From Candidatus Latescibacterota bacterium (GTDB taxonomy: Bacteria > Latescibacterota > UBA2968 > UBA8231), in NCBI GenBank assembly GCA_003529325.1, contig DPVW01000242.1, positions 12,302-28,387 of the forward strand: 16,086 bases of DNA, written 5' to 3'. The notes under the pieces were generated by a model, which saw nothing but the letters and a program-made list of their open reading frames with translations, searched no databases and was not told the DNA's origin. Positions 1-16,086 of this stretch are shown piece by piece (position 1 is the first letter of the stretch; every line of letters begins with the position of its first letter). The position numbers and the translations under genes were made by a program.

Positions 1-456
1 GCCACCGAGATAGGACCCCACGTTGGGGGAGACACCCGCCTGCTCGAATGCTTCGAGCCAGTGGGCGAAGCGGGTCCACCCCCTCGACGCATCGACCCAA
101 TCGGCGATCACCTCACCGTAGATGTGCGTACTGATGCCACTGTCATTGCGCCCACACACAGGGGCGGGCGTCCACGCTTCCCCCATGATCTCGGTAGTGA
201 TACCCTGGGTGATCTTGGAGAGGCAGCGACCGTCGACCATCAGTGGATAGATCGAATGACTCTGGATGTCGATGAAACCGGGACAGATGATGGCGTCGGC
301 GACATCGATGACCTGCCGAGCCTGTGTGTGGGGAATCACGCCCGGTGCCGTGATGGCGGCGATCCTGTCGCCGGCGATGGCGACATCCCCGCGCCACCAG
401 GGATTGCCACTGCCATCGACGATACGACCGTTGATGAGCAAGCTGTCTGATTGCAT
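1..456 (-). CDS. N-acyl-D-amino-acid deacylase-like amidohydrolase, N-terminal part (3' end outside window)
   Basis: This is the first 152 residues of a metal-dependent amidohydrolase of the D-aminoacylase/dihydroorotase-like superfamily; the gene runs off the left edge. The N-terminus has the family's small beta domain (LLINGRIVDGSGNPWWRGDV, residues 6-25, then IAGDRIAAI) followed by the first barrel strand with CPGFIDIQSHS at 58-68. Most relatives have a D-x-H-x-H metal motif there; here the first His is Gln65 and only His67 remains. The segment TQGITTEIMGEAWTPAP (83-99) aligns with the place where classical D-aminoacylases carry a zinc-ligand Cys, but here there is Glu93. Known relatives hydrolyse N-acyl-D-amino acids or cyclic amides, so the substrate is unknown. 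The ATG at 456 lies 4 bp after the stop of the bicupin gene with no clear Shine-Dalgarno site, suggesting translational coupling at the end of the operon. It could belong to a related amidohydrolase subfamily rather than be a true deacylase. Confidence 0.85.
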   Translation of the reverse strand, partial: MQSDSLLINGRIVDGSGNPWWRGDVAIAGDRIAAITAPGVIPHTQARQVIDVADAIICPGFIDIQSHSIYPLMVDGRCLSKITQGITTEIMGEAWTPAPVCGRNDSGISTHIYGEVIADWVDASRGWTRFAHWLEAFEQAGVSPNVGSYLGG

Positions 457-460
457 CGCT

Positions 461-1231
461 TCAGCTGACGACGAGGTAGGACAACCAGCCTTCGTGCCGG
501 TCATTGAGAATCACGTGAGGTACGTTCTGCGGCAGATAGACCGTATCCCCTTCCTTCACCGGATGGGCGTCAAAACCGGCGACGACGGTACCCTCTCCCT
601 CGAGGATGTAGTAAATCTGCTCCTTGTCATCGTGCACATGGTAATCGGAAGCGTTGCCTTTGCTGACGGCCTGCCGGGCAAGATACCAGAAGGCGAGCAG
701 GCAGGGCTGATCGGTGACGGGGTCGTCATCATTTACGAGACGCTCGAGTAGTTGCCAGGTGACGGCATTACCGTGGACGCCCATGTTCGGCGAGGCGTCA
801 CGCCAGTTGAGTACACGGGCCTTGCCCAGCGGTTGACCCTCGGCCAGCTTTTCTTCGGGGACAGGGCAGGTGATGATGAGATACTGCATCCAATCCGGGT
901 TGTTCTCGCCGATGAGCTGATGGCCGACACCAGGGGGGAAGTAGGCGACAGAGCCCTCGCTCACCGGGAAACGATCCTCCTCGATGAGGACTTCCGCCTC
1001 CCCGGAGAGGATGTAGTAGTACTGCTCCGCCTGGGCATGGGCGTGATAATCTGTACTCTTGCCCCCCTGCAAAGAATGGCCGGCGAAGCCGCTGGCCATG
1101 GTGAGGCAGTTGAATGGCGAAGGATCGTCTGCTTTTACCGGGCTGAGGATGGGCCAGACGATGGCGTTGTCGTGACCGAGGTAGGATTCTGAGTCTCGCC
1201 AGTTGCGCACTACGGCGCGAGGGTTGTTCAC
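461..1231 (-). CDS. Bicupin (two tandem cupin_2 domains)
   Basis: This 256-residue soluble protein consists of two cupin barrels from an internal duplication. Domain 1 (about 5-125) has the metal-binding motif DYHAHAQAEQYYYILSGEAE at 61-80 (His63, His65, Glu69) with the second-motif His104 in PPGVGHQLI. Domain 2 (about 138-256) has DYHVHDDKEQIYYILEGEG at 197-215 (His198, His200, Glu204) and His239 in PQNVPHVIL. Each half opens with a similar stretch, VVRNWRDSESYLG and VLNWRDASPNMG. All metal ligands are intact in both halves, so both sites probably bind a divalent metal. Bicupins include oxalate decarboxylases, gentisate-type dioxygenases, isomerases and sugar-binding proteins; none can be assigned here. 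The start is GTG at 1231, fixed by an AAAGGAG Shine-Dalgarno site 6 bases upstream that overlaps the stop of the dioxygenase gene. The gap to that gene is 12 bp. Confidence 0.88.
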   Translation of the reverse strand: MNNPRAVVRNWRDSESYLGHDNAIVWPILSPVKADDPSPFNCLTMASGFAGHSLQGGKSTDYHAHAQAEQYYYILSGEAEVLIEEDRFPVSEGSVAYFPPGVGHQLIGENNPDWMQYLIITCPVPEEKLAEGQPLGKARVLNWRDASPNMGVHGNAVTWQLLERLVNDDDPVTDQPCLLAFWYLARQAVSKGNASDYHVHDDKEQIYYILEGEGTVVAGFDAHPVKEGDTVYLPQNVPHVILNDRHEGWLSYLVVS

Positions 1232-1237
1232 AAGGGT

Positions 1238-1244
1238 CTCCTTT
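1238..1244 (-). promoter_or_regulatory. Ribosome binding site of the bicupin gene
   Basis: On the minus strand AAAGGAG lies 6 bases before the GTG at 1231. It is the strongest ribosome binding site in this operon and its 5' base is the last base of the preceding TAA stop codon. It supports the GTG start and suggests that the bicupin is initiated independently and perhaps at a higher rate than its overlapping neighbours. Confidence 0.7.
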
Positions 1245-2188
1245 TACGGTGTGTGAGTTGTGAGTGGTGCTTGACTCTGGGCCCAGGCCTGCAATGGGAT
1301 GTCCTCGTCCTGAGGCCGCCAGTAGCGGGACACGGGATGTATCTCCGGGTCATCACCGTCATAGCTCGTCCGTCCCGAGCCTAACTCGCCCAGCAGTTGG
1401 CGTTGGACCGGAGTGCAGGGTGCGAGCACGCTGTCCGACTGGTGATCGAAGTCGGAGGGGCGCATCCAGCGTGGATGATATCCGTAGTAAAGGCAGCGCC
1501 TGGCCTGAGTCGACAGATTCGGCTGCAAGGCATGCAGCAACTGCGTGCGCCATACCAGGGCCGTACCCGGACGCACATTGACACTGACGATGTTGGCGGG
1601 GTCGATGTGCCGTCGCCCATCCGCCGCGGTGGGCTGGGTGGACAAGTGGCTGCCGCGGACGACACAGATCTCGCCACTGTTCGGTGCCGTCAGGTCCGTG
1701 AGGTAATAGCCAATCTTCATCTCCATGAAGGGGAGCACGCCACCGACCCGAGGCCAGCCGAAGTTGGGACCGTCGGAATGCCAGGGGAAGAAGCTGTCGG
1801 GGGCGCCCAATTCATGGCCCTTTGCGTCATCGCTCTGTGGCGGGCGTACGTCAGCGTGGGATGTACGCAACTGCACGTTGACCCCCATGAGATCGACGAC
1901 AAATCGAAGCATCAGTGGGTGGTCGACCAAGCGCAGAAAAATAGGGTCCAGGGCGACGGCGTTGCGCATCTGGAATGCTTCGTGTGCACCCAGATCCTGC
2001 TCACTTTTGCAGCGCGCATAACGATCGTCGACGACACCGAGCAATTCGGCAACTTCCTCCGGCGACAGCGCATCTTCAACGAGGAAGAAGCCGTCCTCGT
2101 CGAAGCGGTGGCGCTGTTCGTCAGTCAACGCCAGCGGTGGCCTGGGTTCGGCGACCGGGCCATGTGGAGTCGGCGCCCGCACGGTCAT
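1244..2188 (-). CDS. Phytanoyl-CoA dioxygenase (PhyH) family non-haem iron oxygenase
   Basis: This is a 314-residue 2-oxoglutarate/Fe(II)-dependent oxygenase of the PhyH family. The N-terminus reads LTDEQRHRFDEDGFFLVEDALSPEE in register with the family opening (a tyrosine or phenylalanine after DG, then the first helix), starting near residue 21. The iron-binding triad is visible: His137 and Asp139 in FPWHSDGPNFG, and the distal His219 in TQLLHALQPN, with Arg230/231 placed to bind the 2-oxoglutarate carboxylate. The stretch AAPNSGEICVVRGSHL (about 168-182, beginning TAPNSGE) is the usual G-x-L-x-V-x-P-G-S-H-like strand. The family hydroxylates acyl-CoAs, amino acids, ectoine and small metabolites, so the substrate is open. 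An in-frame ATG exists at 2284, but the ATG at 2188 is preferred: it begins where the conserved domain begins and forms a 4-bp ATGA overlap with the upstream oxidoreductase stop. There is no Shine-Dalgarno site, consistent with coupling. Confidence 0.9.
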   Translation of the reverse strand: MTVRAPTPHGPVAEPRPPLALTDEQRHRFDEDGFFLVEDALSPEEVAELLGVVDDRYARCKSEQDLGAHEAFQMRNAVALDPIFLRLVDHPLMLRFVVDLMGVNVQLRTSHADVRPPQSDDAKGHELGAPDSFFPWHSDGPNFGWPRVGGVLPFMEMKIGYYLTDLTAPNSGEICVVRGSHLSTQPTAADGRRHIDPANIVSVNVRPGTALVWRTQLLHALQPNLSTQARRCLYYGYHPRWMRPSDFDHQSDSVLAPCTPVQRQLLGELGSGRTSYDGDDPEIHPVSRYWRPQDEDIPLQAWAQSQAPLTTHTP

Positions 2189-3219
2189 CGAGCAGAGCCG
2201 CCGATCGAGCCGTCGGCGAGCATCGTCAGCAGCGCCGAGTCGTCGACGTCCAGGGGAAGAACGACGCGCCCCCGTCGTCTGCATGATTCGTAGGTGGCAA
2301 AGATGAGTTCCGTAGCGCGCAGCGCCTTGTGACTGGACAATTCGGGTTCGGCGCCACTTTCCATGCAGTCCACGAGGTTGCTGACGCTGGCGATGGTATG
2401 TTCCGACACGGGCACACCGAGGGTGAGTTCAGGGTCCGTCCACTTGCCGTCACGCACCAATCGCACGGGGTGTTCAGCCTTGCCGCCAGGTGTGACCTCG
2501 ACAACACCTTGAGAGCCGATGAGTCGGTTCTGCAGATTGCCGAAGCCGGTCTCGCCGGTGACCAGCAACCCTTCGACGTCGTTGGCGAAGTGGATCCATG
2601 AGATACCACTGGTGTCGAGGGCGACGCCAAATACCTCGTGCTTTTTATCCACCGAGATCTGGCCGATCACCCATTCTGCCGGTGTTTCCTCGTTGAAGAA
2701 GAACATCATGTCGAACCAGTGGGTTCCCCAGTCGAACATATTCGGGCAGGAGGCCTCGATGCGTTGCAGTTCACCAATGGCGCCGTCACGCACCAGTTGC
2801 CGTGCCGATTGGAAGGTGTCACCGAAGCGTCGTTGATGGCAGAACGTGAGCAGGATGCCATGGCTGTCACAGGCGGCATGCATGGCGCGGGCGTCCCCCC
2901 AGGTGGGGGCCATCGGTTTTTCCGCATGGATTGCGCGGGCGCCAGAGGCGGCGGCGGCTTCGACCATCTCACGATGGAAGTGGGGCCAGGTACAGACGCT
3001 GACGATGTCCGGCGATTCAGCATCCAGCATCTCGTGATAGTCGTCGTACTTGGCGGATACTTCGTACGACTCGGCGAAGGCGTCACGAGCCTCCGGCGAT
3101 GGGTCAGCGCAGGCGACGATCGTTGTGCGCGGGTCGACAGTATATCCCTCGGCGTGCGATCGACCACGTCCACCGCAGCCGATGATGGCGGCCTTCAAGT
3201 TTGTGGCATTGGCTGACAA
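2185..3219 (-). CDS. Gfo/Idh/MocA family NAD(P)-dependent oxidoreductase (operon copy)
   Basis: This is a 344-residue dehydrogenase with an N-terminal Rossmann fold (AAIIGCGGRGRSHAEGY, residues 10-26) and the family signature HAEKPMAPTW, Glu100-Lys101-Pro102, whose Lys is the usual catalytic residue. A WGTHWFDMMFFF motif (His167, Asp170) supplies the second pair of catalytic residues and leads into the alpha/beta C-terminal domain. Members oxidise or epimerise sugars, inositols and sugar acids using NAD(P). An in-frame ATG at 3378 would add about 53 residues of Arg-rich, non-homologous-looking sequence buried in the sulfatase gene. The better start is TTG at 3219, 8 bases after an AGGGG site (3228-3232), giving a normal family length. 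The gene begins 29 bp after the sulfatase stop and overlaps the dioxygenase start by 4 bp (ATGA). Its substrate is presumably an intermediate of the operon's pathway. Confidence 0.9.
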   Translation of the reverse strand: MSANATNLKAAIIGCGGRGRSHAEGYTVDPRTTIVACADPSPEARDAFAESYEVSAKYDDYHEMLDAESPDIVSVCTWPHFHREMVEAAAASGARAIHAEKPMAPTWGDARAMHAACDSHGILLTFCHQRRFGDTFQSARQLVRDGAIGELQRIEASCPNMFDWGTHWFDMMFFFNEETPAEWVIGQISVDKKHEVFGVALDTSGISWIHFANDVEGLLVTGETGFGNLQNRLIGSQGVVEVTPGGKAEHPVRLVRDGKWTDPELTLGVPVSEHTIASVSNLVDCMESGAEPELSSHKALRATELIFATYESCRRRGRVVLPLDVDDSALLTMLADGSIGGSAR

Positions 3220-3222
3220 ATT

Positions 3223-3233
3223 CTCTTCCCCTC
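3223..3233 (-). promoter_or_regulatory. Ribosome binding site deciding a TTG start
   Basis: The minus strand reads GAGGGGAAGAG here, 3 to 13 bases before TTG at 3219. The AGGGG core is 8 bases from the start codon. No in-frame ATG lies between here and the conserved Rossmann motif, so this site is the main argument for a TTG start. Confidence 0.6.
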
Positions 3234-3248
3234 GATTTCTGCAATGTG

Positions 3249-4673
3249 TCAAATCGCCGGCGGTGGTTCCCACTCGGCATTCGGTTGCGGGATTTTCGCT
3301 TCCACCGACTCGCGCCACGTGGCGAGACGTTCGTGCAGATCGCGCTCGACATCTGGGTGCTCCGTTGCGAGGTCGCACTCTTCTGATAGGTCATCACTCA
3401 AATTGTAGAGCTCGCGGCGGTTGTCCTCGAAGAACTCGATGAGCTTCCAGTCCCCGGCACGAATCGAAGAACCGGGAGTGCCACCCTGGTTGCCGTAGTG
3501 CGGGTAGTGCCAGAAGATTGCATCCCGTGCAATCGCGTCGGCTCCGCGCAACAATGGCAGGATGGATGTGCCGTCTACGTGCTGCTGCGGTCTTGATGGC
3601 AGGCCAGCAGCTTCCAGTAGCGTGGGGTAGAAGTCCGGCGTCGTCACCGGCACACAGCAGCTGCTGCCGCCGGTGATATGCCCCGGCCATTTGATTATGA
3701 GTGGTTCGCGCGTGCCGCCCTCGTACATCCAGCCCTTGCCCTCCGCGAGTGGGGCGTTGCAGGTCGGTGATCCCTCGGAGGTGGCGAGTCCGCCATTGTC
3801 GGAGGTGAATACGACGATCGTGTCCTGCCCCTTGCCATTGCGTTCCAGCGCCTGCAATACACGGCCGATGTTCTCGTCGAGGGAGTCGATCATGGCTGCA
3901 TACACCGGGTCTGAATGCAGCAGGCGCCGGCGCACCCGTTGCCCCTTCTTGTGTTCACACGGGAAATACTCGCCGTCGACGAAGGTCTCGAAGCGATCGA
4001 GACCGAGGCGCTTCGCCTTGTCCGCGTATCTCTCCGTACGGTCCGCCTTTGCCTGGATCGGTGTGTGCACCGAATAGTACCAGAGATTCAGGAAGAAGGG
4101 CTGATCACCGACGTTGTCGATGAGATCGACGGCGCGGTCCGTCAGGTAGTCGGTGAGATAGGTATCTGGCGCGACGTCCGTATCGATGAGTGGTTCGATC
4201 GACCAGGGGCTGAAATAACCACCTTTCCCCGGCGACCCCATATGACAACCGCCGACGTTGACATCGAAGCCGTGATCCTGCGGTAAGTGCCCCTCACCGC
4301 CGAGGTGCCACTTGCCGACGTGCCACGTCGCATACCCGCCGTCGCGCAAGGCGCTGGCGAGGCTTGTTTCTGAAGTGGGTAGATCACGCAGATAGGGCAC
4401 GTCGATGACATGGCCGCGGGGTGCCGGGCGAGCATCACCCCAATGAATCCAGTCCGTGATCCCCACGGTGGCGGGGTATTTGCCGGTCAGTAGACTCGCC
4501 CGCGTTGGGGAACAGACCGGACAGGCGGCGTAGCCGTCGGTGAAGCGCATGCCGTCGGCGCAGAGAGCGTCGATGTGTGGCGTTTCGTAGTACTCGGAGC
4601 CACAGCAGGACAGGTCGGTCCAACCCATGTCGTCGATGAGGATGAACAGGATGTTCGGTGGGGCCTGGTTCAC
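3249..4673 (-). CDS. Sulfatase (arylsulfatase-like, formylglycine type), no signal peptide
   Basis: This is a 474-residue type I sulfatase. Metal ligands Asp14-Asp15 are in ILIDDMGWTDL; the formylglycine motif is CSPTRASLLTG at Cys54 to Gly64 (C-x-P-x-R), so Cys54 should be oxidised by a formylglycine-generating enzyme encoded elsewhere. Further family landmarks are GKWHLGG (Lys121, His123), a histidine at 203 in SVHTPI, SDNGG (Asp292, Asn293) and GKGWMYEGG (Lys313). The C-terminal RAGDWKLIEF strand is typical. Family members hydrolyse sulfate esters of sugars, aryl alcohols or choline. The start is GTG at 4673, forming a GTGA overlap with the kinase stop; AGAGGG lies just upstream, and the longer ATG at 4820 would prepend Arg/His-rich sequence read from inside the kinase gene. 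The protein begins directly with the catalytic strand, so it has no signal peptide and probably acts in the cytoplasm. It may act on an imported sulfated sugar or metabolite. Confidence 0.93.
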   Translation of the reverse strand: MNQAPPNILFILIDDMGWTDLSCCGSEYYETPHIDALCADGMRFTDGYAACPVCSPTRASLLTGKYPATVGITDWIHWGDARPAPRGHVIDVPYLRDLPTSETSLASALRDGGYATWHVGKWHLGGEGHLPQDHGFDVNVGGCHMGSPGKGGYFSPWSIEPLIDTDVAPDTYLTDYLTDRAVDLIDNVGDQPFFLNLWYYSVHTPIQAKADRTERYADKAKRLGLDRFETFVDGEYFPCEHKKGQRVRRRLLHSDPVYAAMIDSLDENIGRVLQALERNGKGQDTIVVFTSDNGGLATSEGSPTCNAPLAEGKGWMYEGGTREPLIIKWPGHITGGSSCCVPVTTPDFYPTLLEAAGLPSRPQQHVDGTSILPLLRGADAIARDAIFWHYPHYGNQGGTPGSSIRAGDWKLIEFFEDNRRELYNLSDDLSEECDLATEHPDVERDLHERLATWRESVEAKIPQPNAEWEPPPAI

Positions 4674-5638
4674 GATACCCTCTCGTCTTTGGCAGGATTG
4701 CCCTCGATCAGCGCCTCGATGCGTTGTCTCGTGGGCAGGGCAACACCGAAGTGGCCCATGGCGGTGACGGCGATGGCACCTGCGGCGTTGGCGAAGGCGC
4801 CGATGCGATCCGGGTCCCAATTTTTCAGGAAGCCGACCATGGTCGCTGCGGCGTGACAGTCACCGGCACCGGTAGGCTCGACGACGTCTACTCTGTATCC
4901 GGGACAGAACACGGGCTCTCTATCCCCCTCGGTCAATACGACGCAGCCTTCTGCGGCAAGTGTCACCGCCACCAGCTTCGGCCCGCGGGCGCGGAGTTCG
5001 CGGGCGGCGTCGAAGGCCTCTTCCTTGCCCGTGATGGCTGCAGCCTCCTCCAGCGTTGGCGTCACGACGTCGGCGCTGGCGAGGGCCTCTTCGAAGGCGT
5101 CGGCCGTCTCCGTAGATCCCAATATGGAACGTATGTTCGGGTCGAAGGAGATGGGAACGCCGGCAGCACGGGCGGTGGCCATCGCCACTCGCGAAGTTTC
5201 AAGCGCGGATGCACTGATCTGCATCGTCGTGCCCGGCACGTGCAGGGCAGCGGCGCTGGCTATTGCCTCCGCGTCGATGTCGGCGGGCGTCAACGCCGTC
5301 GCCGCCGAGTCTCGGCGATGGAAGATCAGGTGGGTCTGGCCGTCGATGCACTCGTGAAAACAGAGGCCGATCTGTCGCGACTCGATCTGGCGGATGGCGG
5401 ATACATCGACATTCTCCTCGACGAGGGCAGCGATCATGAAATCACTGAAGGGGTCTGTGCCGACATGGGTGATCAACGCCGCATCGTGGCCACAGCGCAC
5501 GGCGGCAGCGGCATAGGTGGCGGGTCCGCCTCCGGCATATTTGTGCCACTGACTGGCGGCGTGCATGCTGGCCCCCACGGGTTCCGGCATGAACTCGACC
5601 AGGGCCTCTCCCAGCGCCAGGATGGGACCATCGGTCAT
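4670..5638 (-). CDS. PfkB-family carbohydrate kinase (2-keto-3-deoxygluconate kinase-like)
   Basis: This 322-residue kinase has both PfkB signatures: KYAGGGPATYAAAAVRCG (33-50) and VVEPTGAGDCHAAATMVGFL (252-271), with Asp260 as catalytic base and the anion hole GAG at 257-259. The usual Asp-Thr before TGAGD is replaced by Glu-Pro. Between them are FHRRDSAATALTPADID (106-122) and ISFDPNIRSIL (163-173), which match positions conserved in 2-keto-3-deoxygluconate kinases and related sugar-acid kinases. It would use ATP to phosphorylate a sugar or keto-deoxy sugar acid. The ATG at 5638 is preferred over 5839 because it begins at the conserved ILALGEALVEF strand, overlaps the E2 stop by 4 bp (ATGA) and has GGAG about 7 bases upstream. 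Placement between a 2-oxoacid dehydrogenase and a sulfatase suggests a step between desulfation or dehydration of a sugar and carbon-carbon cleavage. Ribokinase- or fructokinase-type activity cannot be excluded. Confidence 0.88.
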   Translation of the reverse strand: MTDGPILALGEALVEFMPEPVGASMHAASQWHKYAGGGPATYAAAAVRCGHDAALITHVGTDPFSDFMIAALVEENVDVSAIRQIESRQIGLCFHECIDGQTHLIFHRRDSAATALTPADIDAEAIASAAALHVPGTTMQISASALETSRVAMATARAAGVPISFDPNIRSILGSTETADAFEEALASADVVTPTLEEAAAITGKEEAFDAARELRARGPKLVAVTLAAEGCVVLTEGDREPVFCPGYRVDVVEPTGAGDCHAAATMVGFLKNWDPDRIGAFANAAGAIAVTAMGHFGVALPTRQRIEALIEGNPAKDERVS

Positions 5639-6834
5639 TCGCCCTCTCCGTCGTTGTCGATGAGTCGTGCAGGTTCTTCCAGCCAACCCTTCAGTGACTG
5701 CAGAAAGGCGGCAGCGCCAGCGCCATCGACGGCACGGTGGTCGCAGGCAAGGCAGAGCGTCATCTGCTCGCGCACGACGGCGGCGCCAGCAACGGCGATG
5801 ACACGCTCGCCGCTGCGCCCGACGGCGAGGATGGCGCACTCAGGTGGGTTGATGATTGGCAGGAATCGTTCGACGCCGTACCCGGCAAGACTAGTGATGG
5901 TAAAGGTTGGTGACGGTTTCTGTGCCACGACGCCAGCGCGCGCCGCGTCGATCGCCTGGTGGCGTAAGGCGGCAAGCTCAGGGAGGCTGTGACGGTCGGC
6001 ATCCGCCAGGGCGGGGACCAGAATGCCACCATCGACGGCGACGGCGAGCCCGATATGGCAGCCCGCCTTGAGTACGATTTCCCGTTCACCCACGTGCGCA
6101 TTGAGGCGCTCGTGCTGGCGCAGGGACCGAGCCGTGGCGGCGACGATGAGGTCGGTGAGGGAGAGGGCTGGATCGGCGCCGAGTTTGGTCCGCAGTTGCT
6201 GTGCGTCGGTTACGTCGACGTCGATGAAGAGATAGAAATGCGGCACACTGCGGGCACTGAGGCTCATACGCTCGGCGATGGCGGCACGCAGTCGGCCATG
6301 GGGCTCGACTCGATCTCTGCCCTCCACGACAGGTTCAATGCCAACCATGACGGGTGTGGCGCCGGATTCGGCCAGCGCGGCACTGAGGACATCCCGTTTT
6401 ATGATTCGCCCCCCAGGGCCCGTGCCACGGATCCGGGTAAGATCGACGAGGAGCTGTCGTGCCACTCGTCGTGCCGATGGCGAGGCGGCGCGACCTGCCG
6501 ATGTCGCCGTAGCAGTCCTGGGTGCCATCCGGGGTGCAAGGTCGACACCAAAGAGCGGTGCTTCGACACCGGCAATCGGTGTGGCGGCAATGCTCTCTCC
6601 GGGCTCACCGATCCAGGCGATGGCGTCCAGCACCTGTGCCTGCTGCCCGGCGGGGCAATCGATGCGCAGCAACACACCAGACCCCTCGGCGGTGACCTCG
6701 AAGGCGGCCTTCTCTGATTCGACGACAGCGAGGACGTCACCCCGTTGCACGCGATCCCCTTCGACAATCGACCACTCCAACAGGATACCGGTCGTCAGAT
6801 TCTCGCCCACTTGTGGCATACGTACCGCGATCAT
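5635..6834 (-). CDS. 2-oxoacid/acetoin dehydrogenase E2, dihydrolipoamide acyltransferase
   Basis: The 399 residues follow classic E2 order. A single lipoyl domain at 1-78 has Lys42 in VVESEKAAFEV as the lipoylation site. A flexible Ala/Pro/Thr-rich linker (about 80-116) precedes the peripheral subunit-binding domain at 117-153 (ASPSARRVARQLLVDL, then GTGPGGRIIKRDVL). The acyltransferase domain runs from about 180 to the end, with the catalytic DHRAVDG motif (His366, Asp370). It transfers an acyl group from the E1-bound intermediate to CoA via lipoamide. The ATG at 6834 overlaps the E1 beta stop as ATGA; I see no strong Shine-Dalgarno site. Having one lipoyl domain and separate E1 subunits resembles acetoin dehydrogenase or branched-chain-type complexes more than proteobacterial pyruvate dehydrogenase. 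No E3 gene is present in the window. Confidence 0.93.
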   Translation of the reverse strand: MIAVRMPQVGENLTTGILLEWSIVEGDRVQRGDVLAVVESEKAAFEVTAEGSGVLLRIDCPAGQQAQVLDAIAWIGEPGESIAATPIAGVEAPLFGVDLAPRMAPRTATATSAGRAASPSARRVARQLLVDLTRIRGTGPGGRIIKRDVLSAALAESGATPVMVGIEPVVEGRDRVEPHGRLRAAIAERMSLSARSVPHFYLFIDVDVTDAQQLRTKLGADPALSLTDLIVAATARSLRQHERLNAHVGEREIVLKAGCHIGLAVAVDGGILVPALADADRHSLPELAALRHQAIDAARAGVVAQKPSPTFTITSLAGYGVERFLPIINPPECAILAVGRSGERVIAVAGAAVVREQMTLCLACDHRAVDGAGAAAFLQSLKGWLEEPARLIDNDGEGE

Positions 6835-7835
6835 GAATACACCGCTCGACGCACGGCAGCGATGATGTCATCCGTCTGCGGGATACAGGCCTGTTCGAGT
6901 GCCCGATTGTAGGGAATCGGCGTATTGCGGCCGGCGACGATCTCTACAGGTGCGTCCAGATAATCGAAGGCATCCGCCTGGATGATCGAGGCGATGTCCG
7001 CTGCGACACCACCGCGACGTACCGCCTCCTGAACGATGACGACGTGTTCGGTGCGGCAAACGGATTCGACGATCGCCTGTCGATCGAGAGGGACCAGAGT
7101 ACGCGGGTCGAGGACCTCCACGTCGATGCCATGCGTGGCGGCCAGTTCTGCGGCAGCCGCCAGGGACCTGGGAATCATGTTCGACCAGGCGATGAGGGTG
7201 CAGTCCCGTCCGGCGCGCTTGATGTCGGCAACTCCGAGAGGGATCACCTCTTCCTCCTTCGGCACGAGTCCTTCGGTCATGTACAACAGCTTGTGCTCCA
7301 GGAATACAACAGGTTCGTCGTCGCGAATGGCGCTGACGAGGAGCGCGCGAGCATCTCGAGGCGTGGAGGGCATGACGAGCTTGAGTCCAGGGATGTGGTA
7401 GAACAGTCCCTCCAGAGACTGAGAGTGCTGCGCCGCCACACCATCACCGACACCACCTTGGGTGCGCAGCACCATGGGCACCGATCGTGCGCCGCCTGAC
7501 ATGAGTCGGTATTTCGCCGCCTGGTTGACGATCTGGTCCATGGTCAACAACGTGAAGTCGACGAAAAGAATCTCGACGACGGGTCGCATACCGGTGATGG
7601 CGGCACCCACGGCGGCGCCGACGATGCTGGGTTCGGCGATGGGGGTATCGATGCAACGCTTTGGTCCAAATTCGGCGAGCAGGCCATCGGTCACTTTGTA
7701 CGAGCCGCCACGTTCGGCGATGCCTACGCCGATACAGAAGACACTCTCGTCCCGAGCCATCTCCTGGCGCAGGGCCTCGTTCAGACCGTCTCGAAAGAGC
7801 AGTGTACGGCTCTCTGATTCGTTGGCGTCGGTCAT
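6831..7835 (-). CDS. Thiamine-diphosphate-dependent dehydrogenase E1 component, beta subunit
   Basis: This 334-residue subunit has the transketolase pyrimidine-binding domain (about 10-190) and transketolase C-terminal domain (about 205-325). Glu68 in IDTPIAEPSIVGAAVGAA corresponds to the glutamate that activates the thiamine aminopyrimidine ring; AAQHSQSLEGLFYHIPGLKL (134-153) carries the conserved active-site His137; PSTPRDARALL and the EVLDPRTLVPLD stretch are standard E1 beta features. With the alpha subunit it decarboxylates a 2-oxoacid or cleaves acetoin and passes the acyl group to lipoyl-E2. The length and the two-gene E1 fit AcoA/AcoB or PdhA/PdhB types, but the substrate cannot be read from sequence. 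The ATG at 7835 overlaps the alpha stop by 4 bp, with AGGAG 8 bases upstream, a good ribosome binding site. Confidence 0.93.
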   Translation of the reverse strand: MTDANESESRTLLFRDGLNEALRQEMARDESVFCIGVGIAERGGSYKVTDGLLAEFGPKRCIDTPIAEPSIVGAAVGAAITGMRPVVEILFVDFTLLTMDQIVNQAAKYRLMSGGARSVPMVLRTQGGVGDGVAAQHSQSLEGLFYHIPGLKLVMPSTPRDARALLVSAIRDDEPVVFLEHKLLYMTEGLVPKEEEVIPLGVADIKRAGRDCTLIAWSNMIPRSLAAAAELAATHGIDVEVLDPRTLVPLDRQAIVESVCRTEHVVIVQEAVRRGGVAADIASIIQADAFDYLDAPVEIVAGRNTPIPYNRALEQACIPQTDDIIAAVRRAVYS

Positions 7836-8779
7836 CTGTCGTACTCCTGCAGGAAGGCGTCGACGTCAGGTTCTGGAGAGTCGTGGGCAAAGTCGATGGC
7901 CGCCTCGATATCGGCGTCCACCTCATTCTGGATGAGATCCGCTCGTCTGTCATCCGCCATATGCCGTCGGCACAATGTCAGGGGATCGCGGCCCTTGTAG
8001 AGCTCGACCTGATCCTGCGGCATGTAGGTACCCGGATCATTCACGTGGTGACCGGCGTGGCGATAGGTCTTGGCCTCGATCAGGATCGGTCCCTCACCGG
8101 CCAGCAGCCGTCGCCGTGCATCGGTGGCACAGTCGTAGACTGCGAGCACGTCGTTGCCATCGACGGCAAGACTGTCAACACCGTAACCCTCCCCACGGTG
8201 GAACAGATCGACGACACGACTGGACTTGTCGATCGGGGTGGATACGGCAAACTGGTTGTTCTCCACTACCAGCAGCAGTGGCAGATTCCAGATGGCGGCA
8301 AGATTCAACGCTTCTCCGAAGGTTCCGTGATTGGCGGCACCGTCGGAGGAAAACACGATACAGACCCGATCTTCGCCACGAATCGTGGCGCCCAACGCGG
8401 CGCCCACACCGATGGGGATGCCCGCGCCGACGATACCATTGGCACCCAGGTTGCCAGTGTCCGGGTCGGCGATATGCATGGAGCCGCCGAGACCGCCACA
8501 GTAGCCCGTCGCCTTGCCAGTGATTTCGGCGAGCATACGGTCAAAACGACCACCACGGGCAAGACAGTGCCCGTGCCCACGGTGGGTGCTGACGATGTAG
8601 TCCTCTGTCCCCAGGGCGGCACACACACCTGTGGCGATGGCCTCCTCGCCCAGATAGGGGTGCAGATACCCGCGAATGTGTCCCTGGCGGTATAACTGGA
8701 TACAGGTCTCCTCGAAGCGGCGAATGCCGTACAGCGTACGATAGAGTCTGGCCAGGAGTTCGGGGTCGGATGTCGACAT
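7832..8779 (-). CDS. Thiamine-diphosphate-dependent dehydrogenase E1 component, alpha subunit
   Basis: This 315-residue E1 alpha subunit starts with helix LLARLYRTLYGIRRFEE (8-24) and has HPYLGEEAIATGVCAAL (40-56), STHRGHGHCLARG (64-76) and the thiamine-diphosphate motif beginning SSDGAANHGTFGEALN (144-159) and ending VVENN (171-175). The motif normally starts Gly-Asp-Gly; here the first Gly is Ser145. YRHAGHHVNDPGTYM (239-253) is the conserved phosphorylation-loop region, of the GHHVNDPG form seen in acetoin/pyruvate-type enzymes. It is the promoter-proximal gene of the nine-gene operon. An in-frame ATG at 9007 is rejected because it adds 76 non-homologous residues running across the divergent promoter and into the opposite gene. 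The ATG at 8779 has no Shine-Dalgarno site; a possible promoter ends just upstream, so the mRNA might be leaderless. Confidence 0.93.
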   Translation of the reverse strand: MSTSDPELLARLYRTLYGIRRFEETCIQLYRQGHIRGYLHPYLGEEAIATGVCAALGTEDYIVSTHRGHGHCLARGGRFDRMLAEITGKATGYCGGLGGSMHIADPDTGNLGANGIVGAGIPIGVGAALGATIRGEDRVCIVFSSDGAANHGTFGEALNLAAIWNLPLLLVVENNQFAVSTPIDKSSRVVDLFHRGEGYGVDSLAVDGNDVLAVYDCATDARRRLLAGEGPILIEAKTYRHAGHHVNDPGTYMPQDQVELYKGRDPLTLCRRHMADDRRADLIQNEVDADIEAAIDFAHDSPEPDVDAFLQEYDR

Positions 8780-8786
8780 GGGTCGA

Positions 8787-8816
8787 AATGTAGCAGCCTG
8801 GGACGTCTGCACCCAA
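8787..8816 (-). promoter_or_regulatory. Candidate sigma70-type promoter of the E1/E2-kinase-sulfatase operon
   Basis: On the minus strand TTGGGT (8816-8811) and TACATT (8792-8787) are separated by 18 bp, resembling -35 and -10 hexamers. Transcription would then begin close to 8780, at or next to the ATG at 8779. This would explain the lack of a ribosome binding site for E1 alpha. The match is weak to moderate and the assignment rests on spacing and position only. Confidence 0.35.
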
Positions 8817-8827
8817 CAGGCCGCTGC

Positions 8828-8856
8828 TTGCCGGAGTAGGACAAGGGCGCTACCAT
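8828..8856 (+). promoter_or_regulatory. Candidate sigma70-type promoter of the TIM-barrel gene
   Basis: TTGCCG (8828-8833) and TACCAT (8851-8856) are 17 bp apart, with 4 of 6 matches each to the consensus hexamers. The predicted start of transcription, near 8863, falls on the left arm of the 13-bp inverted repeat, giving a 5' leader of about 70 bases. The two candidate promoters in this gap face away from each other, as expected for a shared control region. Confidence 0.4.
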
Positions 8857-8861
8857 CCGAA

Positions 8862-8913
8862 TAGTGCCGTGTCTCGGAACAATCCTGTATTCGGCCGCCC
8901 AGACACGGCACTA
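8862..8913. repeat. Perfect 13-bp inverted repeat in the divergent control region
   Basis: TAGTGCCGTGTCT (8862-8874) and AGACACGGCACTA (8901-8913) are exact reverse complements separated by 26 bases. The right arm ends 7 bases before the AAGGAG ribosome binding site of the plus-strand gene. As DNA the arms could be half-sites of a dimeric or tetrameric regulator with centres 39 bp apart (close to whole helical turns). As RNA they could form a 13-bp stem at the very start of the transcript, near the ribosome binding site. There is no U-run after the right arm, so an ordinary intrinsic terminator is unlikely. Confidence 0.75.
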
Positions 8914-8920
8914 GGAAACC

Positions 8921-8926
8921 AAGGAG
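8921..8926 (+). promoter_or_regulatory. Ribosome binding site of the TIM-barrel gene
   Basis: AAGGAG is followed after 7 bases by ATG at 8934. It fixes that start and lies directly downstream of the right arm of the inverted repeat, so folding of the repeat could affect ribosome access. Confidence 0.75.
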
Positions 8927-8933
8927 CCCGGAT

Positions 8934-9749
8934 ATGAGCATAGAACAAGTACAGTTTGCTGGACTTTCGGTGAGCCGGTTCATCATCGGTGGCAATCCCT
9001 TCAGCACGGTGTCGCACCAGGGGCAAGCCCGCGATCTGGAGATGCGTCAGTGGTATACGACGGCTCGGATCAAGGCGACCCTTGCCGAGGCTGAAGCGAG
9101 TGGGGTAACGACCTTTCTCGGTCGAGCCGATAACCACGTGATCCGCATGTTGTGCGAGTACCGAGATGAGGGAGGTCAGATCGACTGGATCGCCCAGACC
9201 ACACCGGAACTGGCCAGCATCGAGCGCTCCGTGAGTCGGGCCCTCGGCGGTGGCGCCAACGCGATCTTCGTGCACGGTGGGCAGACGGACCAGATGCTGG
9301 CCAAGGGTGAGCTCGGCAAAGTGACGGATATCATCCAGCGCATCCGCGACGCCGGCTTGCCTGCCGGGATCGCTGGCCACAACCCCGATGTGCACCGCTG
9401 GGCGGAGGACCACCTCGACGTCGACTTCTATATGTGCTGCTACTACAATCCATCACGACGGGACGAAAAAGCCGAGCGGGATGCCGAGGCACGCGAAACC
9501 TACCGGGACGAGGATCGACAGATCATGGTGAGCCTGATCCAGAGTCTGCGTCGCCCGGCCATTCACTACAAAATCATGGCGGCAGGACGCAATGATCCAG
9601 ACGAGGCGTTCGCCTTTGCCGTCGCCCACATGCGGCCAACGGACGCGACCTGTGTCGGCGTACACACGAAGGACAACCCCGACATGGTGCGCGAAAATGT
9701 CGAGCGTCTGTCACGCTGTCTGGGCCAGGCCGCCGCAAAAGCAGCCTGA
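8934..9749 (+). CDS. TIM-barrel-like protein of unknown function (distant aldo/keto-reductase-like)
   Basis: This is a 271-residue soluble protein of unassigned function. The opening VQFAGLSVSRFIIGGNPFS (6-24) resembles the first strand of aldo/keto-reductase-like barrels (the L-G-x-S-x-x-L-x-x-G-G theme). It is followed by alternating strands and helices: TLAEAEASGVTTFLGRADNH (49-68), DWIAQTT (84-90), ANAIFVHGGQTD (108-119), LPAGIAGHN (142-150), VDFYMCCYYNPS (163-174), AIHYKIMAAGRN (209-220) and ATCVGVHTKDN (238-248). I cannot find the Asp-Tyr-Lys-His tetrad of true aldo/keto reductases. The polar ends of the strands (Asn21, Asn67, His114, His149, Asn150, Tyr170, Lys213, Asn220, Lys246) point to a barrel-mouth active site, perhaps for an aldolase, lyase or isomerase. 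It is transcribed divergently from the dehydrogenase operon through a shared control region, which suggests related regulation. A strong ribosome binding site supports the start. Confidence 0.8.
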   Translation: MSIEQVQFAGLSVSRFIIGGNPFSTVSHQGQARDLEMRQWYTTARIKATLAEAEASGVTTFLGRADNHVIRMLCEYRDEGGQIDWIAQTTPELASIERSVSRALGGGANAIFVHGGQTDQMLAKGELGKVTDIIQRIRDAGLPAGIAGHNPDVHRWAEDHLDVDFYMCCYYNPSRRDEKAERDAEARETYRDEDRQIMVSLIQSLRRPAIHYKIMAAGRNDPDEAFAFAVAHMRPTDATCVGVHTKDNPDMVRENVERLSRCLGQAAAKAA

Positions 9750-10860: not shown

Positions 10861-12030
10861 ATGACGGATTTCGATGCAGTTGTTATCGGTGCCGGGGTAC
10901 TGGGCTGCAACGCTGCGTGGCATCTACAGGAACGGGGCTGCCGAGTCCTGGTCCTCGATGAAGCCCGGGGCCCCGCAACCCGCACGACTCGGGCGGCTGC
11001 TGGTTTCGTCTGTCTGTTCTCCACCATCCACCGACAGGAGTGGGGGCAGACTGAGTGGCTGATGCAGGATTATGGTATCGAGTTCTATTCCCGCTTGTCC
11101 CAGTCAACGGGAAAGGACTTTGCCTTCCATCGCAGTGGCATCGCCTATCTGTATCTGACGGAACAAGGCTGGACTGATATCCAGCCCTGTATCGCCACGG
11201 CCAGTGCCTACGGAACACCGCTCGAAGTCCTGACCAGCCACCGGGCGCAGACCATCCTGCCACAGGTTGCCTTCGACACAACCGTCGGTATCATCTTCGA
11301 CTCCCGCTCCCTGCGACTGCGTGCGGCGGATGCGATTCCTGCTCTCGCCGCACAAGTCGAGCAACGAGGAGGTGAGATCAGATATGACGTCAAGGTCGAT
11401 GGGTTCGCCCTGGAGGGTGGCAGAGTTTCAGGCGTGCGAACCACTGAGGACGTTGTGGCTGGTGAGTGCGTCGTCGTCGCCGCCGGTGCGTGGTCAAGAC
11501 CATTGTTGGCACCCCTGGTATGCCTTCCGGGTGAACCAACCATCGTCGCGCGCTACACGACGCGGCCACTGCCTGGCGTCGATGAGCACCTGCCGATGCT
11601 CATGTTCTCCGACTCCGTGCATCGATTCTTCATTCGCGAGGAACGTGGTGGTCTGCTCATCGGTGGCGCGGATCTGCAGCCTTTGCCGGCGGACCGCGCC
11701 ATCAACGCCACTGCGCCACCCCACGGTATCGACGGTCTGCCCCAAGATCACGCATATCGCATGCGTGAGCATCTGCGCAAGGTGGAGCATGTTCTACCGC
11801 TATTGAGACAGGCCGATATCGAGCAGACCGACGCCGGTCTGCCCGTATACACCGAAGACCGCCGTTTCGTCGCCGATTCGATACCCGGGGTCGAGGGGCT
11901 GTATGCCCTGGCTGCCTGTAACGAGGCGGGTGTCACCCACGGTCCCGCTCTTGGTCGGCATCTGGCGGAACTCATCGTCGATGGTGACACCCGGTTGCCA
12001 CGCTCCCGATACGCCATCGATCGTTTCTGA
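10861..12030 (+). CDS. FAD-dependent amino-acid/amine oxidoreductase (DAO family)
   Basis: This 389-residue flavoprotein begins with the ADP-binding fold FDAVVIGAGVLGCNAAWHL (4-22; Gly10, Gly12, Gly15), then VLVLDEARGPATRTTRAAAG (29-48), the D-amino-acid-oxidase family's second FAD motif. The middle contains a substrate-binding beta domain. The end has GLYALAACNEAGVTHGPALG (about 340-365), the conserved strand-helix that closes over the flavin, followed by a C-terminal helix. Close families are glycine, sarcosine and D-amino-acid oxidases and dehydrogenases, which oxidise an amine at its alpha carbon. No signal peptide or membrane segment is seen. The ATG at 10861 has GAGG 5 bases upstream. 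The gene converges on the lyase-like gene with 12 bp between stops. An amine substrate would link it with the N-acyl-amino-acid-type amidohydrolase at the left end, but that is speculative. Confidence 0.9.
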   Translation: MTDFDAVVIGAGVLGCNAAWHLQERGCRVLVLDEARGPATRTTRAAAGFVCLFSTIHRQEWGQTEWLMQDYGIEFYSRLSQSTGKDFAFHRSGIAYLYLTEQGWTDIQPCIATASAYGTPLEVLTSHRAQTILPQVAFDTTVGIIFDSRSLRLRAADAIPALAAQVEQRGGEIRYDVKVDGFALEGGRVSGVRTTEDVVAGECVVVAAGAWSRPLLAPLVCLPGEPTIVARYTTRPLPGVDEHLPMLMFSDSVHRFFIREERGGLLIGGADLQPLPADRAINATAPPHGIDGLPQDHAYRMREHLRKVEHVLPLLRQADIEQTDAGLPVYTEDRRFVADSIPGVEGLYALAACNEAGVTHGPALGRHLAELIVDGDTRLPRSRYAIDRF

Positions 12031-12042
12031 AGCGTCAGGCAT

Positions 12043-15455: not shown

Positions 15456-16086
15456 TTACGGCTTATTCACGACGTAACGGCCCAGTGCCTGTTCGTCGAC
15501 TTCGACGCCGAGTCCTGGCGTATTTGGCACAACGAACTTGCCATCGGCGTAGGTCCAGGCAGTCGATCCCACGAGGGTTGCCCGATCGGCGAGGCCAGCC
15601 TGATACTCCTGCAGATGCTCGTGCCCACAAGCTGTAGAAAAGTGCAGAGTCGCCGCCTGAAATGGACCCAGTCCGTTGCCCATGTGTGGTGTCGTCGGCA
15701 CGCCGGCGGCGTTGGCCTGTTGCAGTTGCCGCAGGCCGTCACTGAATCCCGTACGGCCAATATCTGGTTGAAAAATGTCCAGCGATCGAGGTGACTCAAA
15801 CCAGGCTTCCGTCTGGAAGTGGGTGCGGAAGTGCTCGCCGAGGGCGATGGGCGCCCCAGGATGGGTGAGCAGTTCACGATGGCCCTGCAGGTCTTCCGGC
15901 TCCAGTGGGCACTCCAGCCAGGTGCAGTTCAGTTCGCCATATCGACGTCGCGCCTCGGGGCCATTTTCTGTCGATACCATCCACAGGGTATCCACCATCC
16001 ATCGATCGGTGGCATCACCGGCGCCGGCCTGCAGGAATTCGACCTCTGCCGTGCCTGCGTCGAGGTCGCCGTCAACGAAAAGTTTC
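15456..16086 (-). CDS. Enolase-superfamily (mandelate racemase/muconate lactonizing type) enzyme, C-terminal part (5' end outside window)
   Basis: The last 209 residues of an enolase-superfamily protein are present; its N-terminal capping domain lies beyond the right edge. The sequence runs in frame from KLFVDGDLDAG at the edge through DRWMVDTLWMVS (metal ligand Asp32 of the fragment), LECPLEP (Glu58), ALGEHFRT (Glu84) and LDIFQPDIGRTGFSDGLRQL (102-121) to GVPTTPHMGNGLG, where His134 corresponds to the barrel acid/base. Such enzymes abstract the alpha proton of a carboxylate and mostly dehydrate sugar acids to 2-keto-3-deoxy acids, which are substrates of keto-deoxy sugar-acid kinases such as the PfkB protein in this window. 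The usual Asp-x-Asn around the first ligand reads Asp-Thr-Leu here. The gene ends 11 bp before the lyase-like gene, implying co-transcription. The exact dehydratase is not assignable. Confidence 0.88.
   Translation of the reverse strand, partial: KLFVDGDLDAGTAEVEFLQAGAGDATDRWMVDTLWMVSTENGPEARRRYGELNCTWLECPLEPEDLQGHRELLTHPGAPIALGEHFRTHFQTEAWFESPRSLDIFQPDIGRTGFSDGLRQLQQANAAGVPTTPHMGNGLGPFQAATLHFSTACGHEHLQEYQAGLADRATLVGSTAWTYADGKFVVPNTPGLGVEVDEQALGRYVVNKP

Follow-up and report, generated by a model that had tools for sequence, protein, structure and literature searches.

A run of nine successive minus-strand genes in a Candidatus Latescibacterota genome is a composite operon, in which two older gene blocks stand side by side, joined in two genomes of one genus. 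The run lies in a stretch of 16,086 nucleotides (assembly GCA_003529325.1, contig DPVW01000242.1, positions 12,302 to 28,387; "the window" hereafter means this whole stretch) and reads, from position 8779 downwards, E1alpha, E1beta and E2 of a thiamine pyrophosphate-dependent dehydrogenase and a PfkB-family kinase (block A), followed by a sulfatase, a Gfo/Idh/MocA oxidoreductase, a PhyH-family dioxygenase, a bicupin and an amidohydrolase (block B). The source assembly (G000) comprises 5.53 Mb in 502 contigs, is 85% complete and 5.18% contaminated, and carries the window on a contig of 29,276 nucleotides. We also found a tenth partner that an earlier note on this DNA had overlooked, an enolase-superfamily (MR/MLE) gene whose occurrence tracks block B. 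The enzyme kinds are known; in open literature sources searched in general terms we recognised no description of either block or of the combination.

The division into two blocks follows from the 64 genomes of the phylum used for comparison, in which relatives carry A and B separately. E1beta orthologs occur in 7 of the 64 at E <= 1e-120, or in 9 when two genomes with pieces cut by contig ends are counted (G004, 76% and 70%; G059, 73% over 228 residues). Six of these nine (G000, G001, G005, G010, G052 and G004) have the order E1alpha-E1beta-E2-PfkB, with E1alpha cut by a contig end in G005, block A in pieces on two contigs in G004, and the PfkB of G052 (277 amino acids) found by Pfam. The contigs of G056 and G059 stop soon after E1beta or E2, and neither E2 nor PfkB was recognised near E1 in G048. 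Downstream of PfkB, in place of the sulfatase, there is a Temptin_C gene in G010 and a peptidase S15 gene in both G010 and G005.

Block B has its own distribution. With the best 25 candidates per genome scored in most genomes, sulfatase orthologs were found in 30 of the 64 genomes at E <= 1e-120 and in 28 when at least 60% identity was required, each with a single match at that level, and only 5 of those 28 also have an E1beta ortholog. The order sulfatase-Gfo/Idh-(PhyH)-bicupin-amidohydrolase was found in six genomes (G000, G001, G002, G003, G005 and G010), with exceptions: G001 has an opposite-strand gene where PhyH would be, a 41% PhyH homolog upstream of MR/MLE, and a nitrilase-like gene (recognised by eye) plus an opposite-strand gene between PfkB and sulfatase; G010 has no PhyH match at the block B position; and in G003 the bicupin match spans 26 residues only and the contig ends inside the sulfatase. 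Sulfatase surroundings were read in 16 of the 28 genomes, and the other ten loci have no bicupin or amidohydrolase match within the 6.7 to 19.9 kb examined. Bicupins of at least 60% identity are found in 5 of the 64 genomes, all among the six with block B, and amidohydrolase orthologs of at least 59% in 20. The same sulfatase has other partners in a different family of the phylum, where its ortholog adjoins a Gfo/Idh-like gene (G030, locus L161; G026, L167) and, in G030, an RraA-like gene as well.

The two blocks are joined in G000 and G001 and lie on different contigs in G005 and G010. G002, a member of the window's genus, has the order divergent 271-amino-acid gene, PfkB, sulfatase, Gfo/Idh, PhyH, bicupin, amidohydrolase; E1alpha, E1beta and E2, which would stand precisely between the first two of these, are absent. 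The earlier note had held that all nine genes very likely serve one pathway and had named scattering of the genes in relatives as evidence that would speak against this. That claim stands in part: the genes are not one fixed unit, given the separation of A and B, the absence of E1/E2 from G002 and the many sulfatases without E1beta, while the co-occurrence of the blocks and the position of PfkB beside block B in G002 speak for it.

E1beta orthologs occur in 4 of the 6 genomes with block B versus 5 of the 58 others (Fisher p 0.003), and within the family in 4 of 6 versus 1 of 19 (p 0.005). For the MR/MLE gene, with at most 29 candidates scored per genome, orthologs were found in 9 of the 64 genomes at E <= 1e-70: the six with block B and, outside that set, G009, G014 and G019. 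The gene is thus present in 6 of 6 genomes with block B and in 3 of the 58 others (p 1.1e-6); inside the family the figures are 6 of 6 and 3 of 19 (p 0.0005). All four tests ignore kinship, and their p values are no more than indicative. This co-occurrence suggests that the blocks, separable as they are, are functionally connected. In G001 the MR/MLE gene immediately precedes E1alpha, and in G005 and G010 it lies 2.6 to 3.6 kb ahead of the sulfatase. In G009 (L187) its neighbours are an amidase, an ArgE/DapE-family deacylase and a second enolase-superfamily gene that exceeds the cut-off of TIGR01928 (MenC), and in G014 and G019 (L188, L189) open frames of similar length adjoin it. That the blocks are instead functionally independent and share a promoter by chance in this genus, A as a general pyruvate/acetoin dehydrogenase with a sugar kinase and B as an unrelated sulfo-compound module, is in our view rather unlikely. 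Such independence would account for the unlinked blocks of G005 and G010, the intact block B without E1/E2 in G002 and the sulfatase orthologs that mostly lack an E1beta ortholog, but it agrees poorly with the higher frequency of E1beta in genomes with block B, with PfkB lying beside block B in G002 and with the junction of A and B in both G000 and G001.

Within the window the genes are tightly packed (Table 1), and the profile matches agree with the domain identities given in the earlier note. The five 4-bp overlaps that it had counted among the eight junctions are all present exactly: ATGA at 7832-7835, 6831-6834, 5635-5638 and 2185-2188, and GTGA at 4670-4673. Elsewhere a gap of 29 nucleotides separates the sulfatase stop (3249) from the TTG start of the Gfo/Idh gene (3219), with GAGGGGAAGAG upstream of the start; 12 nucleotides separate the PhyH stop (1244) from the GTG of the bicupin (1231), with AAAAGGAGA upstream; and 4 nucleotides separate the bicupin stop (461) from the amidohydrolase ATG (456), taking the internal Met nearest the orthologs' start. 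We infer a single transcript across the nine genes. A promoter and terminator scan of window positions 1-9500 on both strands neither supports nor contradicts it (five terminator-like sites, one on the minus strand, versus 4.3 in shuffles; two promoter-like sites versus 2.6). The amidohydrolase starts at the low edge of the interval covered by the earlier note and extends past the end of the window. On either side of the window the contig (C279) continues with stretches of N (12000-12301 and 28388-28694), which interrupt the amidohydrolase and MR/MLE genes; a short string of residues recurs on both sides of the N run in the amidohydrolase, as at a scaffold join, and intact orthologs form one open frame.

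Table 1 Features of the composite operon and its surroundings (window positions).
Feature	Position	Strand	Remarks
E1 alpha subunit, thiamine pyrophosphate-dependent dehydrogenase	7832..8779	-	PF00676; block A
E1 beta subunit	6831..7835	-	PF02779/PF02780; above NCBIfam PRK09212 cut-off; block A
E2 acyltransferase	5635..6834	-	Lipoyl, E3-binding and catalytic domains; block A
PfkB-family kinase	4670..5638	-	Nearest models IolC, tagatose kinase and KDG kinase; block A; adjoins block B in G002
S1_16-like formylglycine sulfatase (predicted)	3249..4673	-	CSPTR motif; block B
Gfo/Idh/MocA oxidoreductase	2185..3219	-	TTG start; block B
PhyH-family Fe(II)/2-oxoglutarate dioxygenase	1244..2188	-	Block B; not at the corresponding place in G010 and G001
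Bicupin	461..1231	-	Block B
Amidohydrolase, D-aminoacylase family, 5' part	1..456	-	NCBIfam matches and orthologs; continues beyond the window; block B
Enolase-superfamily (MR/MLE) protein, C-terminal part	15456..16085	-	Accompanies block B in relatives
Divergent 271-amino-acid protein	8934..9749	+	No Pfam match; 88% identical gene adjoins PfkB in G002

The sulfatase offers the most direct view of the substrate. Its translation contains CSPTR, in line with the formylglycine motif of sulfatases, C-x-P-S/T-R, and matches PF00884 with 179 bits. Judged by eye, none of the nine N-termini has an evident signal peptide, and as that of the sulfatase also lacks this look, the enzyme is probably cytoplasmic. 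Among solved structures it scores highest against 6UST (586 bits) and 9FO1 (446 bits), from which we take it to be S1_16-like. Both belong to S1_16, 6UST (HhSulf) as a 6S-N-acetylgalactosamine (GalNAc) sulfatase and 9FO1 (AMOR_S1_16A) as a galactose-4-sulfate sulfatase of kappa-carrageenan; the subfamily also includes 4S-Gal/GalNAc enzymes, and its characteristic residues are Trp79, His125 and His149 in 9FO1 numbering (PMC11760155, in part). Like these nearest solved relatives, the window sulfatase retains the Trp (Trp75), the first His (His123), the sulfate-site His203, Glu300, Lys313, Asn395 and Gln396. The Glu, Asn and Gln of the sugar site are present in all 11 sulfatases compared (the window's and ten orthologs), and Trp75 is Phe in three of them (G030, G027 and G004). 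The protein differs from 6UST and 9FO1 in the second characteristic His, the equivalent of His149, which is Ser147 here and Ser in all 11. A galacto-configured substrate is likely.

The enolase-superfamily partner and the kinase point to sugar acids. For the G001 ortholog of the MR/MLE gene the top models are galactonate, mannonate, arabinonate and rhamnonate dehydratases, all below their cut-offs, and the nearest solved relatives, 4dn1 and 2nql, are named merely isomerase/lactonizing enzyme. The blocks DTLW, ECPL, GEHFRT, QPD and TPHMG are invariant in six of six orthologs, and we take them to hold the MR-subgroup metal ligands and the His-Asp dyad. The protein is a candidate aldonate dehydratase. 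A carrageenan 3,6-anhydrogalactose route was set aside, as the ortholog scores 58 bits against the cycloisomerase 5xd7 versus 174 against 4dn1. The kinase has 5-dehydro-2-deoxygluconokinase (IolC; 183 bits, cut-off 300), tagatose kinase and 2-keto-3-deoxygluconate (KDG) kinase as its top models, all below their cut-offs (139.8 bits against 400 for the KDG/2-keto-3-deoxygalactonate (KDGal) kinase model), and its structure matches are 4du5, 3pl2, 3iq0 and the KDG kinases 1v19 and 1wye. Aligned to 1v19, it keeps the Arg of RRDSA and the Arg of DPNIR, presumably substrate residues. The genome has one 2-keto-3-deoxy-6-phosphogluconate (KDPG)-type aldolase (PF01081), on contig C455. Taken together, MR/MLE, PfkB and KDPG aldolase are consistent with degradation by way of a 2-keto-3-deoxy sugar acid.

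We therefore put forward, as possible rather than probable, that the cell imports a sulfated sugar or sugar acid of galacto configuration and then desulfates, oxidises, dehydrates, phosphorylates and cleaves it, the resulting 2-oxo acid being converted to acyl-CoA by E1/E2. The sulfatase would remove the sulfate, and PhyH and the amidohydrolase might remove a further substituent such as O-methyl or N-acyl. PhyH-family members, one of them from Poribacteria, demethylate 2'-O-methyl nucleosides (PMC12709175, in part), and by analogy the window's PhyH is a possible sugar O-demethylase. The Gfo/Idh enzyme would oxidise the desulfated sugar towards the aldonate, the MR/MLE enzyme would dehydrate the aldonate to a 2-keto-3-deoxy acid, PfkB would phosphorylate this acid, and the aldolase encoded outside the operon would cleave the product. 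E1/E2, with an E3 from elsewhere, would convert the released 2-oxo acid (pyruvate or similar) to acyl-CoA. The bicupin has no step in this route, and a KdgF-like role is conceivable for it; its assignment as (S)-ureidoglycine aminohydrolase or oxalate decarboxylase was rejected on scores far below the cut-offs and weak structure matches. Sulfated-sugar catabolism, which the earlier note had offered as plausible, gains support from the S1_16-like sulfatase without evident signal peptide, the sugar-acid type kinase, the enolase-superfamily partner and an E1 from a clade found in sugar clusters (below).

A number of observations weigh against this route. Known S1_16 specificities may not transfer, because the His149 equivalent is Ser throughout. 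No equivalog model was reached at its cut-off for the kinase, the Gfo/Idh enzyme, the MR/MLE enzyme or the sulfatase. No KDPG aldolase, transporter or regulator lies within the operon. In the 5.5-Mb genome, sulfatases give 82 matches, fragments among them, and PhyH proteins at least 150, from 190 candidates of which 150 were scored; with families so hugely expanded chance neighbours are common. Sulfatase and amidohydrolase orthologs are widespread without the remaining genes, the blocks lie on different contigs in G005 and G010, the MR/MLE gene lies on a contig other than that of block B in G002 and G003, and the co-occurrence tests take no account of relatedness among the genomes. Some neighbours in relatives are amide-cleaving enzymes or an N-acylamino-acid-racemase-type gene, which could indicate an N-acyl compound, and near the E1 of two clade members (L052 and G048) neither an aldolase nor E2 nor PfkB was matched.

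The amidohydrolase raises the question of amino sugars. It is a D-aminoacylase relative (1m7j 263 bits; PpOngB 219 bits), and the ong pathway for oxidised chitin amino sugars combines a D-aminoacylase-family enzyme with a KDG kinase (PMC9537276, in part). Because of this pairing, the residues given for N-acetylglucosaminate (GlcNAc1A) deacetylases (PpOngB Ser292 and Gln298, a subtype V Cys/His/His metal site and a catalytic Asp; PMC12017989, in part) were tested in the amidohydrolase. Ser292 corresponds to Thr295, as in D-aminoacylases, since in the G002 ortholog the partner of PpOngB 294 is residue 297, and residues 298-304 (TSVLPPW), where Gln298 would fall, contain no Gln, this stretch lying outside the alignments. 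In D-aminoacylase alignments the metal-ligand Cys is Ala (GEA for GNC) and HxH is QxH, invariant in four of four orthologs; both metal His (224 and 254) and Asp417 are retained. An OngB-type GlcNAc1A deacetylase was rejected on the Thr, the missing Gln and the lost Cys ligand, and the protein may not be a de-N-acetylase at all.

We accordingly consider it unlikely that the operon encodes an oxidative amino-sugar route like ong, in which GalNAc- or N-acetylglucosamine (GlcNAc)-sulfate would be desulfated, oxidised to an N-acetyl-aldonate, deacetylated by the amidohydrolase, deaminated or dehydrated to KDG or KDGal and phosphorylated by PfkB. The likenesses to ong are a D-aminoacylase-family amidohydrolase related to PpOngB, a KDG-type kinase and a GH20 gene adjoining MR/MLE in G010 (PMC9537276, PMC12017989, both in part), and 6UST is reported as a 6S-GalNAc sulfatase. 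The differences are the altered OngB specificity and metal-ligand residues and the nine genes' lack of an OngC-like pyridoxal phosphate enzyme. The Glu/Asn/Gln set of 9FO1 has been read as leaving no room for an acetyl group, yet 6UST shares this set while positioning the Glu differently (PMC11760155, in part).

A substrate other than a plain sugar, namely an N-acyl or amide-containing small molecule, with the MR/MLE enzyme as racemase or epimerase and the amidohydrolase as deacylase, seems to us distinctly unlikely. Its appeal lies in the D-aminoacylase-like amidohydrolase, in the amide-type genes found near MR/MLE or the sulfatase (the nitrilase-like gene of G001, a penicillin amidase in G005, and in G009 the amidase, the deacylase and the MenC/N-acylamino-acid-racemase-type gene) and in an FAD-dependent, amino-acid-oxidase-like protein of the DAO family at window positions 10861-12030, whose nearest models are N-methyltryptophan, glycine and D-amino-acid oxidases, below cut-off. 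These amide-type neighbours are not conserved with block B, however, and PfkB, Gfo/Idh and the S1_16-like sulfatase are sugar-type enzymes; the first models matched by MR/MLE are likewise sugar-acid dehydratases. The sulfated-sugar route remains our preferred reading.

How E1/E2 fits this route is a separate matter. E1beta reaches the PRK09212 cut-off (374 bits against 321) and E1alpha falls short of TIGR03182 (322 against 393.85); two other E1alpha/beta pairs in the genome are 43-52% identical. The nearest E1alpha relative in the PDB is human pyruvate dehydrogenase (211 bits), and the named relatives among the 120 listed of 7768 matches are pyruvate, pyruvate/acetoin or acetoin:DCPIP enzymes. 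These names do not decide the substrate, and E1 could equally be a pyruvate/acetoin-type enzyme. No E3 was found within the cluster, and three proteins elsewhere in the genome exceed the TIGR01350 cut-off. Formation of an acyl-CoA from a sugar acid through E1/E2 is possible.

Searching named genomes with E1beta yielded 73 loci. We compared 24 loci (20 of the 73 plus four of the phylum) with the neighbour-protein set and the remaining E1beta loci with the window's proteins only, backing neighbour assignments by Pfam and NCBIfam. A class II aldolase follows E1beta on the same strand in 9 of the 24, directly in eight and after a transporter and another frame in L059. These loci come from Lentisphaeria (L053), Acidobacteria (L055, L056), Planctomycetes (L057, L059, L060, L114), KSB1 (L119) and Omnitrophota (L120). 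Seven of the nine have E2, six HAD, four FSA/transaldolase, four PfkB (upstream in L056), four xylose-isomerase- or IolE-like TIM barrels and four GntR, on contigs several of which are short; that of L053 ends before E2 could show, and in L120 the aldolase is followed directly by HAD, with no E2 match. A multi-phylum cluster of the form GntR - E1alpha - E1beta - class II aldolase - E2 - HAD - FSA/transaldolase - PfkB - TIM-barrel isomerase-like thus recurs, nearly complete in L119 alone among the loci. The nine compared loci with E1beta of 57-64% identity (L061 to L082) all lack a same-strand aldolase, and L078 has one on the other strand. In an E1beta tree of 34 rows, the window's clade comprises all eight aldolase-linked rows, the five PfkB-linked rows of the phylum, G048, L052 and L054, with support of 99/97 from a bootstrap that had not fully settled. 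L052 and G048, where such neighbours were not matched, argue against a fixed association. On balance, its E1 would belong to sugar catabolism, with no particular substrate fixed.

The association of E1 with aldolase and PfkB across phyla is a more surprising part of the results than the operon itself. An E1 clade tied to a kinase and/or an aldolase in six phyla suggests a carbohydrate-specific use of the 2-oxoacid dehydrogenase complex. In the strongest form of this idea, the substrate of E1/E2 would be a 2-oxo acid or alpha-hydroxyketone derived from sugar (such as hydroxypyruvate or a 2-keto-3-deoxy-aldonate) in place of pyruvate, and the product would be a sugar-acyl-CoA or glycolyl-CoA. 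This would be an undescribed step common to clusters of Latescibacterota, Planctomycetota, KSB1, Acidobacteriota, Lentisphaerota and Omnitrophota, in which E1 occurs with PfkB and/or class II aldolase and, where the contig reaches, with HAD, FSA and isomerase-like genes; we hold it to be quite improbable.

The operon resembles several described systems in part. With the acetoin and pyruvate dehydrogenase complexes (aco, pdh) it shares E1alpha, E1beta and an E2 with lipoyl, E3-binding and catalytic domains; it differs in the missing E3, the PfkB neighbour and the link of its E1 clade to class II aldolase clusters in other phyla. De Ley-Doudoroff routes (through KDG and 2-keto-3-deoxy-6-phosphogalactonate) employ an enolase-superfamily sugar-acid dehydratase, a KDG kinase and a KDPG aldolase. 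Here too an oxidoreductase, an MR/MLE dehydratase-like gene and a PfkB KDG-type kinase occur together, but a sulfatase, PhyH, bicupin and amidohydrolase are added, the aldolase is outside the operon and E1/E2 is joined. The myo-inositol iol operon is matched by the IolC-like kinase, the IolG-like oxidoreductase and, in the cross-phylum relatives, the class II aldolase and the IolE-like TIM barrel of L114, whereas no IolD, IolB or IolA match was found among the window proteins scanned. A myo-inositol pathway was rejected on the scores of IolC (above) and IolG (98.9 bits against a cut-off of 355). In a genome where some 80 sulfatase matches and no fewer than 150 for PhyH have no assigned substrate, a compact conserved block around one sulfatase provides a tractable entry to one of these substrates.

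Further features lie upstream of the operon. Between E1alpha and the divergent gene, positions 8863-8912 form a 50-bp element with perfect 12-bp inverted arms (AGTGCCGTGTCT / AGACACGGCACT); it has one exact copy in the genome, and the arms are absent from the G002 locus. Between MR/MLE and E1alpha, positions 12043-15444 encode a protein of 1133 amino acids, perhaps a polysaccharide-lyase-like enzyme, with weak heparinase II/III C-terminal, PQQ, FG-GAP propeller and lambda-carrageenase-propeller matches.

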